A stretch of 51,159 bases of DNA, from NCBI GenBank assembly GCA_947623925.1, contig CANQID010000005.1, forward strand, positions 1 through 51,159. Direction: 5' to 3'. The notes beneath the pieces were generated by a model. That model was not told where the DNA came from, did no database searches, and was given only the letters and a program-made list of their open reading frames with translations. Positions 25,358-40,443 of the stretch are shown in pieces. The position numbers were made by a program, and so were the translations under genes. Each line of letters begins with the position of its first letter. Within the stretch, counting starts at the first letter, position 1. This DNA is from an uncultured Bacilli bacterium. Lineage in GTDB: Bacteria > Bacillota_I > Bacilli_A > RF39 > UBA660.

Positions 25358-26938
25358 TCAATTAATTTTCTTTGCATGAACAACTAATCTTTGATCAGAA
25401 TTTATATAACAAGTTGATAATGTAAGTATTTTATCATTTTCATTAACTTGAACTCCAAAGTCATTTATACTTCTATTTTTAATTAAATTTATAAAGTCTA
25501 AAAATGAGGTGTCAGAATCGAAATTAACTTTTAAATAATCACTAGTAGTATTTATTGTATAAATTGAAAAGATTTGCCATTTTGTATCTTTCCCTTTTAT
25601 ATTTAAATTTATTATTAAATTTTCTTTATTACTATACCAATCTTTAGAAAGAACATTTTTAAGTGAACCAAACATCAATCCATCTTTACTTATACTATGT
25701 CCATATATTATATTATTTTTATCTAAATTATCTAAATTATTTCTATAGTCTGCAAAAATCCAACCTGCAATATTATAATTTTTACTATATGAATGTTGTA
25801 AATAATACTCATTATCTTTATATTGAACTACAGGGTAATTAATATTAGTATTATTAACTTTTAATAATCCAACTGTATCAGAATTTTTCTTTTTCAATTC
25901 ATTATAAACATTACTATATTCCATATAATATGGATTATTTTCTTTTTTATCAACTTCGTCTAAAACTTGTGTTTCATCTATTGTTTCAATAGTTTTATTA
26001 TTATCGTAATTGGAAACTATTTGTTCTATCTCTTCTAATTCGTTATTTATTTTTTGATTAGATTTAAATTGGGAATACTCTGAAAATATAAAAGTCGAAA
26101 TAACAAATATTATTCCTACTAAAGCAATTGTTCTAAGTAAAAATATATTTACTTCTTTTAATTTGTTTTTTTCTTTATAATCATCTGAATATTTTATTTT
26201 TATTATATTATTATATTTTTTTTGAAGTTTATCAAATTTTCTACTATCTTTTAACAATTGTTTAATTGTTTCTTCACTTTCATATATTTCAATTTTTTTA
26301 TTGATAATTTTATTTTCTTTTAATAAATTTAATAAATCAACTAACAAATCATAATTATAATTATAAATTTTTATTAATTTTAAATTTTTATTAATTTGAA
26401 AAAAATAATTTAATTCTTTAGTATCAATATTTCTAAAATTTCTTTTTATTACAATTTCCTCTTTATTGTATATTTTTGAATATGTATCTATATTATTATC
26501 ATTCATTACATCACTTATAAACAAATATTCACATCTAGTGTTTACTTTGATATTTTCAAATTTTTGAATCATTATATCTGGTAATGAATAACAATTAATT
26601 TCTTTTATATTTTTATTTTCTAATATTGAATATGAAGTTGAATAATTAATTTCTTTTTCATATTCAAAATATATAAAATTTATAGATTTTATATATTTAA
26701 TTATTTGCAATGATATATCACATATTTGAAAATTTTTAATAATTGCTTTTGTTATTTTTTTATTAGAAATAAGTGAATCAATTTTTTCTTTAAATAAAGT
26801 TTCATTTTTTAATAACTCACTATCTAGTTCTAATATTTTTTTATTTTTTACATAATTATCTAAGAATTCAAAATAATGTTCAAATTCATTTTTGCAAAAT
26901 ACAATATCATTATCTTCAATTTTTATAAAAACTTTCAT
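25358..26938 (-). CDS. Class-B-like sortase with a large N-terminal cytoplasmic extension
   Basis: Surface-protein transpeptidase. Residues about 325-526 form the sortase domain: TVGLLKVNNTNINYPVVQ, the catalytic His in YGHS, the catalytic Cys in TLSTC and the Arg in SDQRLVVHAK. A single membrane helix (about 268-290) precedes it. Unusually, about 265 residues precede the membrane helix; they should face the cytoplasm, are Ile/Asn/Lys rich and look like a repeating strand-helix fold. Ordinary class B sortases have only about 30 residues there. It lies downstream of an NPETG surface protein, separated by a terminator, so it may be expressed by read-through. Confidence 0.82.
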   Translation of the reverse strand: MKVFIKIEDNDIVFCKNEFEHYFEFLDNYVKNKKILELDSELLKNETLFKEKIDSLISNKKITKAIIKNFQICDISLQIIKYIKSINFIYFEYEKEINYSTSYSILENKNIKEINCYSLPDIMIQKFENIKVNTRCEYLFISDVMNDNNIDTYSKIYNKEEIVIKRNFRNIDTKELNYFFQINKNLKLIKIYNYNYDLLVDLLNLLKENKIINKKIEIYESEETIKQLLKDSRKFDKLQKKYNNIIKIKYSDDYKEKNKLKEVNIFLLRTIALVGIIFVISTFIFSEYSQFKSNQKINNELEEIEQIVSNYDNNKTIETIDETQVLDEVDKKENNPYYMEYSNVYNELKKKNSDTVGLLKVNNTNINYPVVQYKDNEYYLQHSYSKNYNIAGWIFADYRNNLDNLDKNNIIYGHSISKDGLMFGSLKNVLSKDWYSNKENLIINLNIKGKDTKWQIFSIYTINTTSDYLKVNFDSDTSFLDFINLIKNRSINDFGVQVNENDKILTLSTCYINSDQRLVVHAKKIN

Positions 26939-28490: not shown

Positions 28491-29651
28491 ATGAGTGAAA
28501 AAAATAATAATAAAAACAACAGAAAAATCAATAAAAATAATATAAATACAAAAAAAACAATAAATAAAACCTCATCTAAAAATAGCAACTATACTTCACA
28601 AATAGCAGTTCAAAAAAAGAAAGAAAAAATGATAGAAAATTCTTATAAAACAACAGCAAAATCCACTCCAACAAAACAAGAAAATCCTCATTATAAAGAA
28701 TTACATACGACTACTCATATAAAAAATGCAGAATATGAACCAAAACACACTATTAAGTCTATTAAAAACGGAAAAATAAATTCTCCTCAAGAAGAAGGAA
28801 CAGTTTACCATACTAAAAAAAGGAGAAAATTAAAAGTTAAAAACATAATTCTATTACTTATATTTTTAACTAGTTTCACCTTATTAGTTTATTCATGTAT
28901 CAATATATATAGATGGTATCAAGACTCAAAGCAAACTAAAAAAATAAATGATGAAATACAAAATATCGTCGAAATAAAAGACATAGAAGAAGATAATACT
29001 CCAACAAAACAGATAGAAGTCATCGAACAAGAAGAAGAAATTCCAAAAAGCAATCCTTATTGGGATTACATAAAAATGAATCTAATTGATGTTAATTTCA
29101 ACAATTTAAAAGCAATTAATAATGAAACAGTCGGTTGGATTCAAGTAAACGGGACAAACATCAACTACCCTTTCGTTCAAACAAGCGATAACAAATTCTA
29201 TCTAACTCATACATTTAATAAAAATTATAACACTGCAGGTTGGGTCTTCATGGATTATCGTAATAACATTCAAAATTTTGATAAAAACACCATTCTTTAT
29301 GGCCATGGAAGACGAGATAAAACAATGTTTGGTTCATTAAAAAACATTTTACAGAGTAATTGGTACAATAACAAAAACAACTACATTATCAAGCTTTCTA
29401 CAGAATATCAAAACAGTTTATGGCAGGTCTTTAGTGTTTATCATATAGCTACAACTAGTGACTATATCCAAACAGAATTTAGTAGTGACGAAGAATTTAA
29501 AAAATTTGCTGATATGCTTCAAGCAAGAAGTGCTTATACTTTCGATACAACTGTAAGTGGATCAGATAAAATATTAACTCTATCGACTTGCTATAACGAT
29601 CAAGAAAAAGTAGTAATGCACGCTAAATTAATAAAGTTTACTAATCGTTAA
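28491..29651 (+). CDS. Class-B-like sortase, Lys at the usual Arg position
   Basis: A 386-residue membrane transpeptidase. The first ~115 residues are a basic, Lys/Asn/Thr-rich disordered cytoplasmic tail; a membrane helix follows at about 118-140, then an acidic linker and the sortase domain (about 195-386) with TVGWIQVNGTNINYPFVQ, the His in YGHGR and the Cys in TLSTC. After the Cys the sequence reads YNDQEKVVMHAKL, placing Lys where the sister sortase at 25.4 kb has Arg. The gene is transcribed opposite to its neighbours, and its codons use more C than flanking housekeeping genes, hinting at separate ancestry. Own promoter and terminator. Confidence 0.85.
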   Translation: MSEKNNNKNNRKINKNNINTKKTINKTSSKNSNYTSQIAVQKKKEKMIENSYKTTAKSTPTKQENPHYKELHTTTHIKNAEYEPKHTIKSIKNGKINSPQEEGTVYHTKKRRKLKVKNIILLLIFLTSFTLLVYSCINIYRWYQDSKQTKKINDEIQNIVEIKDIEEDNTPTKQIEVIEQEEEIPKSNPYWDYIKMNLIDVNFNNLKAINNETVGWIQVNGTNINYPFVQTSDNKFYLTHTFNKNYNTAGWVFMDYRNNIQNFDKNTILYGHGRRDKTMFGSLKNILQSNWYNNKNNYIIKLSTEYQNSLWQVFSVYHIATTSDYIQTEFSSDEEFKKFADMLQARSAYTFDTTVSGSDKILTLSTCYNDQEKVVMHAKLIKFTNR

Positions 29652-36642: not shown

Positions 36643-37773
36643 TTATGAACGTTTTTCTTGCGGAAAAACAACTGATGTTTTACTTGATACTGGCTTTCCA
36701 AATACTGGTATACTACCACTCCAATAAAAACTTTGAATTCTAACTTTCCTATTGCCCCAATTAGAAACATCACTAAGTTTTTCATATGCATGATATATAA
36801 TCCAATTAGTATTGTTTGGTCCCTTAACAAAACTAGCATGGCCAGGTCCATATACACCGTTTCCAGATTCGAATAGAGGTTTTGATGATTTTTTCCAAGA
36901 AGAAGGATTTAAAATGTTTCCATTATCTTTAAAAGATAACATTCCCAAACAATATGTACTTGTTCCCGCACCAGAAGCTGAATATATTATAAGCAATTGC
37001 CCGGTAGGTGATATCAAAACTTCAGGGCCTTCATTAATGTAACTTTTATTAGCTGTTTCCCAACTATAAGTTGGTGATGATATTTTTACTCTCTTTCCTG
37101 AAATTTTAGTAGGGCTACTCATAGGAGCAATATACAAATGCTGTATATATTCTCCCTTTTTTTCTAATCCAGACCATACAAAATACAATTTACCTTTCCA
37201 TTGTAATAAAGTTCCATCTATTGCATATTGATCTGTCGAATCAAACACCTTAACTGGTGCTTCATATTCTCCCATAGGATCATTTGTTTTTGATTTTAAA
37301 ACATACATTCTCCTCTTATAATCACCTGAATCACTTTTTTTATTATCAGGTGCAGCAAAATATATATACCAGTGGTTTTGATAATGATGCAATTCTGGAG
37401 CCCACAATGAAGCTTTATCTGATCTCTGATAAATCTTTTTACCACTCTTTTTCAAATTAGATAAAGTGTCAGTTTTATATATTGTTATACTATTACCAGT
37501 AGCTAAATAATAATAATAATTTCCATATCTTATTACCCATGGATCTGCTCCCTTTGTAACTGGATTTTTAAAACTTTTAACATTTTTACTTACACTGTTA
37601 CCCATTAAATTAAATAAATTGCCACCTGTAAATAACACATATGCTCCTCCACCTAAAGCAAGTACTCCTACTAAACATGCTGCTATGATTGCTATTTTTT
37701 TATTTCTTCTTTTTTTTAATGTTTCATTCGACGGGCGTCCAACTGAATTAACATTTTTTTTAAATAAACTCAT
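36643..37773 (-). CDS. Membrane-anchored GH43 family glycosidase
   Basis: Extracellular glycoside hydrolase of 376 residues, probably releasing arabinose or xylose from plant polysaccharide. Residues 1-30 are a basic cytoplasmic segment (GRPSNETLKKRRNKK), followed by a membrane helix (about 31-50) that serves as an uncleaved anchor. The five-bladed propeller domain shows the GH43 acidic triad: Asp in KGADPWVIR, Asp in YAIDGTLL and Glu in NEGPEVL. Other family marks are SLWAPELHHYQNHWYIYFA and GPGHASF. The anchor module is nearly identical to that of the next gene upstream. Substrate cannot be read from sequence. Strong TTGACA promoter. Confidence 0.88.
   Translation of the reverse strand: MSLFKKNVNSVGRPSNETLKKRRNKKIAIIAACLVGVLALGGGAYVLFTGGNLFNLMGNSVSKNVKSFKNPVTKGADPWVIRYGNYYYYLATGNSITIYKTDTLSNLKKSGKKIYQRSDKASLWAPELHHYQNHWYIYFAAPDNKKSDSGDYKRRMYVLKSKTNDPMGEYEAPVKVFDSTDQYAIDGTLLQWKGKLYFVWSGLEKKGEYIQHLYIAPMSSPTKISGKRVKISSPTYSWETANKSYINEGPEVLISPTGQLLIIYSASGAGTSTYCLGMLSFKDNGNILNPSSWKKSSKPLFESGNGVYGPGHASFVKGPNNTNWIIYHAYEKLSDVSNWGNRKVRIQSFYWSGSIPVFGKPVSSKTSVVFPQEKRS
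37592..37773. repeat. Anchor-module repeat, copy 1
   Basis: This 182-bp segment encodes the first 60 residues of the GH43 protein and matches 39282-39463 in the same orientation without gaps, with about 19 mismatches counted by eye. Similarity begins at the start codon and stops abruptly after the SV(S/T)K residues. Confidence 0.9.
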
Positions 37774-37800
37774 ATAACCACTCCTTTACCTTATATTTTT

Positions 37801-37829
37801 ATAATACATACAATTACTATTATTGTCAA
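37801..37829 (-). promoter_or_regulatory. Promoter of the GH43 gene
   Basis: Consensus TTGACA and TATTAT separated by 17 nt, with TG directly before the -10. AAGGAG ribosome-binding site downstream. Confidence 0.8.
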
Positions 37830-37999
37830 TTTAAATTTAGAAAGTGATGATTGAAAATTAAGATTTTGTAAATTCATTGTAAACTTATACATTGATTTTT
37901 TTTAACAATTACATCATACATTTTATTCTAAACAAATTTATAAATAATATAAATGTATAATCTAAAAATGATAATTATATAATTTTTATTTAAGAAAAT
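37830..37999. other. Intergenic region between the two anchored-protein genes
   Basis: AT-rich and without an ORF. It separates the GH43 promoter from the terminator of the upstream repeat-protein gene. No further element is visible. Confidence 0.5.
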
Positions 38000-38033
38000 T
38001 AAAAAAAAAAAGAGTGTACTATATCATACACTC
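38000..38033 (-). terminator. Terminator of the anchored repeat protein gene
   Basis: GAGTGTA and TACACTC form a stem with an 8-nt loop followed by ten T on the minus strand. Confidence 0.88.
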
Positions 38034-38086
38034 ATAAAAATTGAAATTTCAAAATACAAGTACTTACTTCACAATCTCAAAATTTT

Positions 38087-39463
38087 TTAGCTTTTGCTTA
38101 CATTCGTTAATACAACATACAACGTCATATTATTTTTTACAGTTATTTTTTCACCTGATTTGTAATCAACAACTGTTGAAGCAGATTTTTTTGAATAACC
38201 ACGTGCATTTTTACCTTTTGGTGCTTTTAAAATTTTTGGTAATGTTACTGTACAACCTTTGCTTTCTTCTCCTGCTGGAGTACAACTCATTCTAGTCTTA
38301 GTTCCCTCTAGTGTTGAACCTAATGCCTGAATAGTTACAGTATATGTAGAATTCTTTTTAACAATTGGATAATATGTAACATCCTTATATATTTTTATTT
38401 TATTATTTGTTAAAGCAACGTCTGCTTTTGTTGCACTCATACTTGTTGCAAATCCAACTGTTGAATAATATGTTGGTGTTTTTATAGTTGGTGCTTGAAC
38501 TTCACAAGTTAAAGCAGTATTGTAAAGAGTACAACTTTTACCACCCGTAAAACTTAATTTTACATTAGTTTTTGTGTTATTATAAAATTTTGCTGTTACG
38601 GTTTTTTTAGATATTACATAATAAGTTACATTTCTATTTATAGTTATATCTCCATTATTTACTGGTACTAAAACATTCTTATCAGTTGCATTTTTAATTT
38701 CTGAAAGTCCTAATACAGACCATCCATCACCTCTAGATATACTTGGCAATGTTACTTTACAACTTGTACCTACTGTTGTACAAGATAAAGTTGTTTTTCC
38801 TACACTTGCTCCATTTCCAACTAATGTTAATGTAAATGTATTTTTCTTATTATTTGTAACTGTAATTTCATTAGACCAACCAGTATATTCTTTTTTAGAG
38901 CCATTAACTATATATCCTCTTATTCTAACTTTCTTCGTGTTATTAAAGTCAATACTAAATGCATCTGTAACTGTCTTGCCTTTATTTCCACTTAATGGAT
39001 TAGGAACAGAAACTCCCCATTTACCATTTGAATAAATTTGATATTCAATACCTATTGTAACATCTGAAGGCAAAGTACCGTGTATAAATGTTGGTAATGA
39101 AATATTATAAGAAATTTTTCCATTAGAATCTCTTTTATGTTCACTAACATTTGCTTGATTTAATGCTGGTGTAAAATATTCTACACGCTTTGGTTTTGAT
39201 GTCTGACCATCTCCTCTTCTACAATAATCTCCCTGAAGTGTAGTATTTGATGGACATATATACATTGAAGTATATTTTGTGACACTGTTACCCATTAAAT
39301 TAAATAAATTGCCCCCTGTCAATAACACATATGCTCCTCCACCTAAAGCAAGTACACCTACTATGCATGCTGCTACGATTGCTATTTTCTTATTTCTCCT
39401 TTTTTTTAATGTTTCATTTGATGGTCTTCCTACTGGATTAACATCTTTCTGCAAAAAACTCAT
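38087..39463 (-). CDS. Membrane-anchored surface protein with three Cys-containing beta repeats
   Basis: A 458-residue extracellular protein of unknown function. The N-terminal ~60 residues (GRPSNETLKKRRNKK and a membrane helix) are nearly identical to those of the adjacent GH43 enzyme. Then comes a Cys-containing segment (CPSNTTLQGDYC), an Ig/FN3-like region (about 105-205), and three ~80-residue repeats ending ...TYY.I.KK or TLYVVL, each with two or so Cys around a SCT..G..C.VTLP core, which may form disulfides. Such all-beta repeats usually project adhesive or binding regions. No sortase signal; anchoring is by the N-terminal helix. The promoter holds a G10 run, suggesting phase-variable expression. 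Confidence 0.8.
   Translation of the reverse strand: MSFLQKDVNPVGRPSNETLKKRRNKKIAIVAACIVGVLALGGGAYVLLTGGNLFNLMGNSVTKYTSMYICPSNTTLQGDYCRRGDGQTSKPKRVEYFTPALNQANVSEHKRDSNGKISYNISLPTFIHGTLPSDVTIGIEYQIYSNGKWGVSVPNPLSGNKGKTVTDAFSIDFNNTKKVRIRGYIVNGSKKEYTGWSNEITVTNNKKNTFTLTLVGNGASVGKTTLSCTTVGTSCKVTLPSISRGDGWSVLGLSEIKNATDKNVLVPVNNGDITINRNVTYYVISKKTVTAKFYNNTKTNVKLSFTGGKSCTLYNTALTCEVQAPTIKTPTYYSTVGFATSMSATKADVALTNNKIKIYKDVTYYPIVKKNSTYTVTIQALGSTLEGTKTRMSCTPAGEESKGCTVTLPKILKAPKGKNARGYSKKSASTVVDYKSGEKITVKNNMTLYVVLTNVSKS
39282..39463. repeat. Anchor-module repeat, copy 2
   Basis: Partner of the 37592-37773 repeat: same length of 182 bp, same orientation, roughly 90% identical, encoding the N-terminal anchor of the Cys-repeat surface protein. 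Confidence 0.9.
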
Positions 39464-39492: not shown

Positions 39493-39521
39493 AGTTTACA
39501 CCCCCCCCCCATAAAAGTCAA
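39493..39521 (-). promoter_or_regulatory. Promoter with G10 tract in the spacer (candidate phase-variable)
   Basis: On the minus strand TTGACT and TAAACT are 17 nt apart. The spacer is TTTAT, then ten G (39510-39501), then TG. Loss or gain of one G would change the spacing to 16 or 18. The surface-protein ATG lies 30 nt downstream with a GGAGG site. Confidence 0.75.
39501..39510. repeat. Homopolymer of ten C (G on minus)
   Basis: Ten consecutive C on plus, flanked by A on both sides. It is the longest G/C homopolymer I see in this otherwise very AT-rich window and lies entirely inside a promoter spacer. Confidence 0.95.
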
Positions 39522-39662: not shown

Positions 39663-40373
39663 TTATTTTGGGCTAAAAGTTAATTTATATTTTATTAATT
39701 CCCACATTTTTATTATTATAAATATAAGCATAAATAATATAAAACCTAAAAATATAATTACATTATTTTCGATTGTTGATGATAATATATAATCATATAT
39801 TCCGTGTAAAACCATTGCTATAAAAAAGCCACAATATTTATTATATAAATACCTTCCCGTATTAAAATCAATTGATTTATAATATTTTGCATATCCATAG
39901 TAATATCCCATTATTATTCCAAAACAAGCATGTGCTGGAACAGAAAATATACACCTAGTTATAAGCAAAGATAAATCTGCATCAAGTAAATAAAACCTAT
40001 TTTCTACAACCGCAAATCCTAATGAAATTAATACACCAAATAAAACACCATCATAAACTTCATTAAATTTTTTATTTTTCCAAGTAAATATATTTAAAAC
40101 TAAATATTTTGAAAATTCTTCAATAAATGCAATTGCACCAAATGCTATCAACATAACACTAAATTCATCGTAATTATATGTTAATATAAATGGTAAAAAT
40201 TTTGTAAGTATCATTGTCATAAGCTTCACAACTAAATATGATATACACCCACCTGTAAATATAACAGCTAATGTTTTAGAATTTTCCTTTTCAATTAAAT
40301 CCAATTTATATATTACAAATACAATTAGTGCAACAGGTATTAAAGATATAAGCCAAAATATTATTCCTTGCAT
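39663..40373 (-). CDS. prsW: PrsW-family intramembrane metalloprotease
   Basis: A 236-residue polytopic membrane protein with about eight hydrophobic segments. It carries the PrsW/CAAX-protease-like motifs: EEFSK in the second half of the first conserved block, FAVVEN, the HACFG histidine and HGIYDY. In Bacillus PrsW starts the cleavage of the anti-sigma factor RsiW. The ATG at 40373 follows GGTGG and is preferred over the track's GTG. No ECF sigma or anti-sigma gene is adjacent; a SigK-type factor lies 0.8 kb away on the opposite strand, so any link is speculative. Confidence 0.85.
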   Translation of the reverse strand: MQGIIFWLISLIPVALIVFVIYKLDLIEKENSKTLAVIFTGGCISYLVVKLMTMILTKFLPFILTYNYDEFSVMLIAFGAIAFIEEFSKYLVLNIFTWKNKKFNEVYDGVLFGVLISLGFAVVENRFYLLDADLSLLITRCIFSVPAHACFGIIMGYYYGYAKYYKSIDFNTGRYLYNKYCGFFIAMVLHGIYDYILSSTIENNVIIFLGFILFMLIFIIIKMWELIKYKLTFSPK

Positions 40374-40443
40374 ATATACCACCTTATTTTAATTTCTTAT
40401 TTGAGAATAATATATATTTTTTTATTTGTCAATATTTTTATAA

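Follow-up and report, generated by a model that had tools for sequence, protein, structure and literature searches.

Several described systems come close to the locus reported here. In Gram-positive bacteria, YSIRK-type motifs act as N-terminal export motifs of surface proteins. In the PorA-type promoter of Neisseria, a poly-G tract lies between the -35 and -10 elements of a surface-protein gene. In the Vlp proteins the N-terminal region is conserved and the outer region varies. According to the review PMC10502178, which cites Citti and Wise (1995), the Vlp lipoproteins of Mycoplasma hyorhinis are encoded by surface genes each of which is switched by the length of a homopolymer in its promoter region. 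Multi-locus phase variation has been seen mostly in pathogens, an apparent restriction that a 2025 review (PMC11868660) raises as an unanswered question. In the window analysed here, by which we mean the whole stretch of 51,159 nucleotides, two minus-strand neighbours, P0001 and P0002, carry unrelated ectodomains behind a common 61-residue anchor. We put the probability at roughly 70% that the 182-bp segment encoding this anchor is a duplicated 5' module of surface proteins with an N-in/C-out topology, partly under slipped-strand phase variation. The features of the two genes are as follows.

37592-37773, minus strand: P0001 header module (tail, membrane helix and juxtamembrane motif; codons 1-61)
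37726-37740, minus strand: P0001 GRPSN motif, codons 12-16; 97% kept between genera g1 and g52
37624-37695, minus strand: P0001 membrane helix, codons 27-50 (read from sequence); 22% identity to g52
37594-37608, minus strand: P0001 juxtamembrane LMGNS motif, codons 56-60
39282-39463, minus strand: P0002 header module, codons 1-61
39416-39430, minus strand: P0002 GRPSN motif, codons 12-16
39314-39385, minus strand: P0002 membrane helix, codons 27-50 (read from sequence)
39284-39298, minus strand: P0002 juxtamembrane LMGNS motif, codons 56-60
36643-37773, minus strand: P0001, anchored GH43 family glycosidase, 376 aa (PF04616; PDB 9nxj, E 9.7e-50)
36718-37572, minus strand: GH43 domain of P0001, residues 68-352 (PF04616, E 6.5e-49)
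38087-39463, minus strand: P0002, anchored Cys-containing repeat protein, 458 aa
38105-38890, minus strand: P0002 repeats, related to Listeria-Bacteroides (Flg_new-like) repeats, about residues 192-453
38012-38033, minus strand: terminator-like hairpin and T run after P0002

The initial annotation had described the two segments as equal in length, ungapped and about 90% identical, and the count bears this out, with 163 of 182 bases the same (89.6%) between 37592-37773 and 39282-39463. The basic cytoplasmic tail (GRPSNETLKKRRNKK) and the single membrane helix are also as it described them. The 19 differences are spread over codon positions 1, 2 and 3 as 6/0/13, and the NG86 estimates for the pair are dN 0.067 and dS 0.30. 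The 200-250 nt upstream of the two genes score no higher than shuffles when compared, so the similarity begins at the ATG. Past codon 61 the local score is 38 against a shuffle maximum of 36 and the similarity ends there, in keeping with the claim that the proteins then diverge completely into a GH43 enzyme and a Cys-containing repeat protein; outside the 61-residue module they have no homologous region. Could the likeness of the headers be kept up by ongoing gene conversion between P0001 and P0002? The final 10 codons are the same in both genes, synonymous sites included, only two of the 19 changes fall after codon 36, and a sister arrangement occurs in genome G365 (genus g90), where two GRPSN genes are about 90% identical over 387 aligned bases that cover promoter and header only. 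However, a dS of 0.30 inside the module argues against complete conversion in recent times, and the sequence outside it offers nothing homologous for comparison. A partial event would be compatible with the concentration of changes in the first 36 codons, and we regard ongoing conversion as an unlikely explanation, albeit the one that survives best among the alternatives.

The ectodomain of P0001 is readily assigned. It matches PF04616 in Pfam over the whole domain (167.3 bits, cut-off 32.2), and residues 69-370 align over the entire domain of the nearest solved chain, PDB 9nxj. The ADPW, AIDGT and NEGP stretches of P0001 align with this chain, so that the Asp, Asp and Glu which we take to be catalytic, from knowledge of the GH43 family, are all present. 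P0001 thus resembles GH43 glycosidases such as 9nxj, 5m8b and 3akf over the full domain and, unlike them, has the GRPSN anchor fused in front. For P0002, no Pfam domain scored above cut-off, PF09479 gave no match and the PDB search returned chance matches only. Its repeats match another protein of the same genome (C7, L149; 34%, E 4.5e-15), which itself matches PF09479 Flg_new at 3.7e-21, as well as a protein of the congener G090 (L150) that scores as Listeria-Bacteroides repeats. L150 has a different N-terminus from P0002, and that of L149 is cut off by a contig end. Members of the Listeria-Bacteroides repeat proteins (PF09479, Flg_new) in this genome and in G090 are similar to P0002 in their repeats, whereas P0002 has no Pfam match of its own and has extra cysteines. 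An AlphaFold model of P0002 alone had a mean pLDDT of 40 and was discarded, and ETRAMP matches in Pfam stayed below cut-off.

A profile of the header was run against the family (386 genomes) and the order (288 genomes). The genome under study (1.23 Mb in 49 contigs, 94.6% complete) holds the copies in P0001 and P0002 only, and about 17 clear GRPSN-header genes were found in 11 genomes of five genera, g1 (our own), g52, g90, g127 and g10; the header was not found in two sampled congeners, G090 and G214. These relatives are diverged and carry unrelated ectodomains, including dockerin, Flg_new repeat and others of unrecognised type. Those of g52 include dockerin type I domains and Cys-rich CPSGY repeats, and one g52 header protein of 1756 residues has 12 Flg_new repeats and an HEFGH motif; other g52 proteins have the juxtamembrane LMGNS(V/I)T but lack the GRPSN tail. 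Identity between g1 and g52 is 97% for GRPSN, 66% for the juxtamembrane LMGNS segment and 22% for the membrane helix, and the retention of both motifs between genera while the helix diverges points to constraint on them. LMGNS is missing from the header members of g90, g127 and g10. Its pattern occurs outside g1 and g52 as singletons at a rate near that of the reversed control, which we treated as chance. Also rejected were the tail of the family search above an E of about 1e-6, consisting of a generic basic tail and helix, and a match in Candidatus Cryptoclostridium (L032), which we put down to composition since it falls in a basic-plus-helix stretch in the interior of a protein kinase. The viral contigs searched yielded no relative of the header, and the exact header string had no match in the open-access literature searched, although an earlier description elsewhere is possible.

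The initial annotation had reasoned that a header present in these two genes only, across all relatives, would indicate a simple recent local duplication. Its recurrence in 11 genomes of five genera, four of them additional to our own, takes that ground away. A related and broader explanation, which we rate somewhat lower than gene conversion, is a local tandem duplication after which the ectodomain was replaced or diverged, with a header of no special role and an incidental G tract in the promoter of P0002. The genes are adjacent on the same strand and share the header, there is no further copy in the genome or the two congeners, and a dS of 0.30 fits a moderately old event. However, the upstream regions cannot be aligned despite a 90% identical header, four other genera carry it with unrelated ectodomains, its motif-wise conservation across genera shows constraint, and all six long G tracts of the genome, described below, lie in promoters. 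The wider family that the initial annotation had envisaged does exist to the extent of the relatives in g52, g90, g127 and g10; it is patchy, with about 17 genes, two copies here and none in two congeners. The idea of an exchangeable anchor is thus supported in outline, for a patchy family of modest size.

In the duplicated-module reading that we prefer, the anchor would be made up of a basic tail that carries GRPSN on the cytoplasmic side, a single helix and the juxtamembrane LMGNS(V/I), and recombination among paralogous surface-protein genes would keep the 5' module while swapping the ectodomain. GRPSN may contact a cytoplasmic partner or steer export, and LMGNS, lying just beyond the membrane, may serve for recognition or processing. 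The suggestion that the tail is a sorting or interaction signal would fit with the cytoplasmic pentapeptide being the most conserved part. In genus g49 (L076, L085 and L086) we observed very short proteins with MAKRGRPSNKTIRKRK and one helix, in frames of about 46-55 aa, which may represent the tail motif in free-standing form. Another role for the tail would be that of an AT-hook-like DNA-binding element tethering a membrane protein to the nucleoid. Its GRP is flanked by basic residues and the short g49 proteins read KRGRPSNK, but P0001 and P0002 have VGRP, lacking the RGRP core, and the Pfam scan gave no AT-hook match at E<=1, so that we consider this role improbable.

The display route was also suggested to be independent of sortase. 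We looked in P0001 and P0002 for a C-terminal LPXTG, helix and basic tail and found none (the C-termini are FPQEKRS and TNVSKS, respectively), so both are best read as N-terminally anchored, and to this extent the proposal holds. However, the genome has seven sortase (PF04203) matches, two of them inside the window, in frames at 25358-26938 and 28491-29651, and header anchoring is therefore an extra display route that exists alongside the sortases and does not replace them. Directly upstream of P0002, at 39663-40382, lies a gene for a PrsW-family intramembrane protease. It has no match in the congeners G090 and G214; we rejected PrsW as a partner of the header on account of this absence and because it was not evident in the frames listed beside the header genes of g52, g127 and g10.

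More is raised by the promoters of the two genes, where the initial annotation had overlooked a tract of ten G.

37801-37829, minus strand: P0001 promoter, TTGACA-17-TATTAT, without a G tract
39493-39521, minus strand: predicted P0002 promoter, TTGACT, 17-nt spacer with G10, TAAACT (-10 ambiguous)
39501-39510, minus strand: G10 homopolymer in the P0002 promoter spacer

The two promoters are unrelated, so that, whether the module moved or was retained in place, the promoter did not go with it. The -10 element of P0002 is weak, as TAAACT agrees at 4/6 positions and other choices give spacers of 15 or 26. There are six tracts of at least nine G in the genome, and every one is placed between -35 and -10-like hexamers upstream of a surface, membrane or secreted protein, often one with a shared header. 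The genes behind them are those of three pilin-like proteins, of a protein of 1075 residues and of P0002, together with the leading member of a tandem set of three. The three long pilin-like (N_methyl) proteins (L097:3974-5717, L098:2147-3974 and L099:2456-4032) are alike in promoter, G11 tract and roughly the first 600-900 bp of coding sequence, and diverge thereafter. The three tandem genes (L101:1215-3956) have a different membrane header (TVKVVLITLLVVLLIGLIGFIVYDKVIKK) and diverging ectodomains; the first has TTGACA-N7-G10-TATAAT, and in the third the tract has decayed (GTGGG, 12-nt spacer). We predict from sequence that the P0002 promoter is phase-variable: slipped-strand changes in G10 would alter the spacing between -35 and -10 and thereby switch transcription, so that P0002 would be displayed by a fraction of the cells while the GH43 enzyme would be expressed from an ordinary promoter.

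P0002 is probably one case of a wider set of poly-G promoters before header-sharing surface proteins in the family. Of the 386 family genomes, 116 contain the pattern TTGAC-N3-10-G8, and these represent 64 of the 150 genera (reversed pattern, 6 genomes); it is sparser in other families of the class (26/198 genomes, the sample being one to which this family also contributes). Four further genomes have 26 distinct tracts of eight or more G, and 24 of these are flanked by -35 and -10-like hexamers. A match of at least 5/6 to TATAAT lies within the 8 nt after the tract in 40 of 50 distinct cases, compared with a mean of 12.7 and a maximum of 20 in shuffles. An N-terminal membrane segment is found in 29 of 40 downstream genes, compared with 60 of the 168 frames that served as background (Fisher p 3e-5), for tracts sampled mostly one per genome and background frames taken solely from fetched loci, some of which were chosen for header genes, so that the background is raised. 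The GRPSN pair of G365 has tracts of G9 and G6 and unrelated ectodomains, and among paralogous promoters that precede a different header in the congener G090 the tract ranges from G9 to G13; exchange of the ectodomain behind a kept 5' module and change in tract length are thus both seen among paralogues. That two-colour short-read chemistry gave rise to the G runs as errors of sequencing or assembly is very improbable since, although several lie near contig ends, the runs fall between -35 and -10-like hexamers, mostly with sequence on both sides, and recur in dozens of genera while the reversed pattern is nearly absent. A G8 tract was also noticed in a promoter-like site before a short protein that, judged by eye, resembles the ubiquitin-like YukD of type VII secretion (L126:1501). 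No report of RF39 with phase variation was found in the open-access literature searched. The poly-G promoter is a more general feature than the header, and probably a more important one.

Poly-G spacers in 64 of the 150 genera of a small-genome family, mostly before anchored surface proteins, would make the question of restriction to pathogens testable in existing metagenome reads, and in the header family two short, well-delimited motifs are available for direct tests of what they do in surface display. Only tentatively would we go further and propose that GRPSN and the juxtamembrane LMGNS(V/I) form an undescribed targeting or processing signal, in an exchangeable display header with family-wide poly-G phase-switch promoters that would make up a large phasome. 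Compared with YSIRK, the GRPSN header is likewise a conserved motif of the N-terminal region common to otherwise unrelated surface proteins, but its sequence is different, it is cytoplasmic and precedes a helix with no evident cleavage site, and in P0001 and P0002 it is not accompanied by LPXTG. As in systems of the Vlp and PorA kind, a homopolymer is present between -35 and -10 in the P0002 promoter, where the -10 assignment is weak, and tract length varies between similar promoters of paralogues in G365 and G090. P0002 is like PorA in having a poly-G promoter spacer before a surface-protein gene, whereas PorA is a single outer-membrane porin gene of a Gram-negative pathogen and has no shared anchor module. 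Several surface-protein genes here have homopolymers in the promoter region, as do those of the Vlp system; however, the latter has poly-A and lipoproteins in one species, and the former poly-G and several types of non-lipoprotein helix anchors in many genera.
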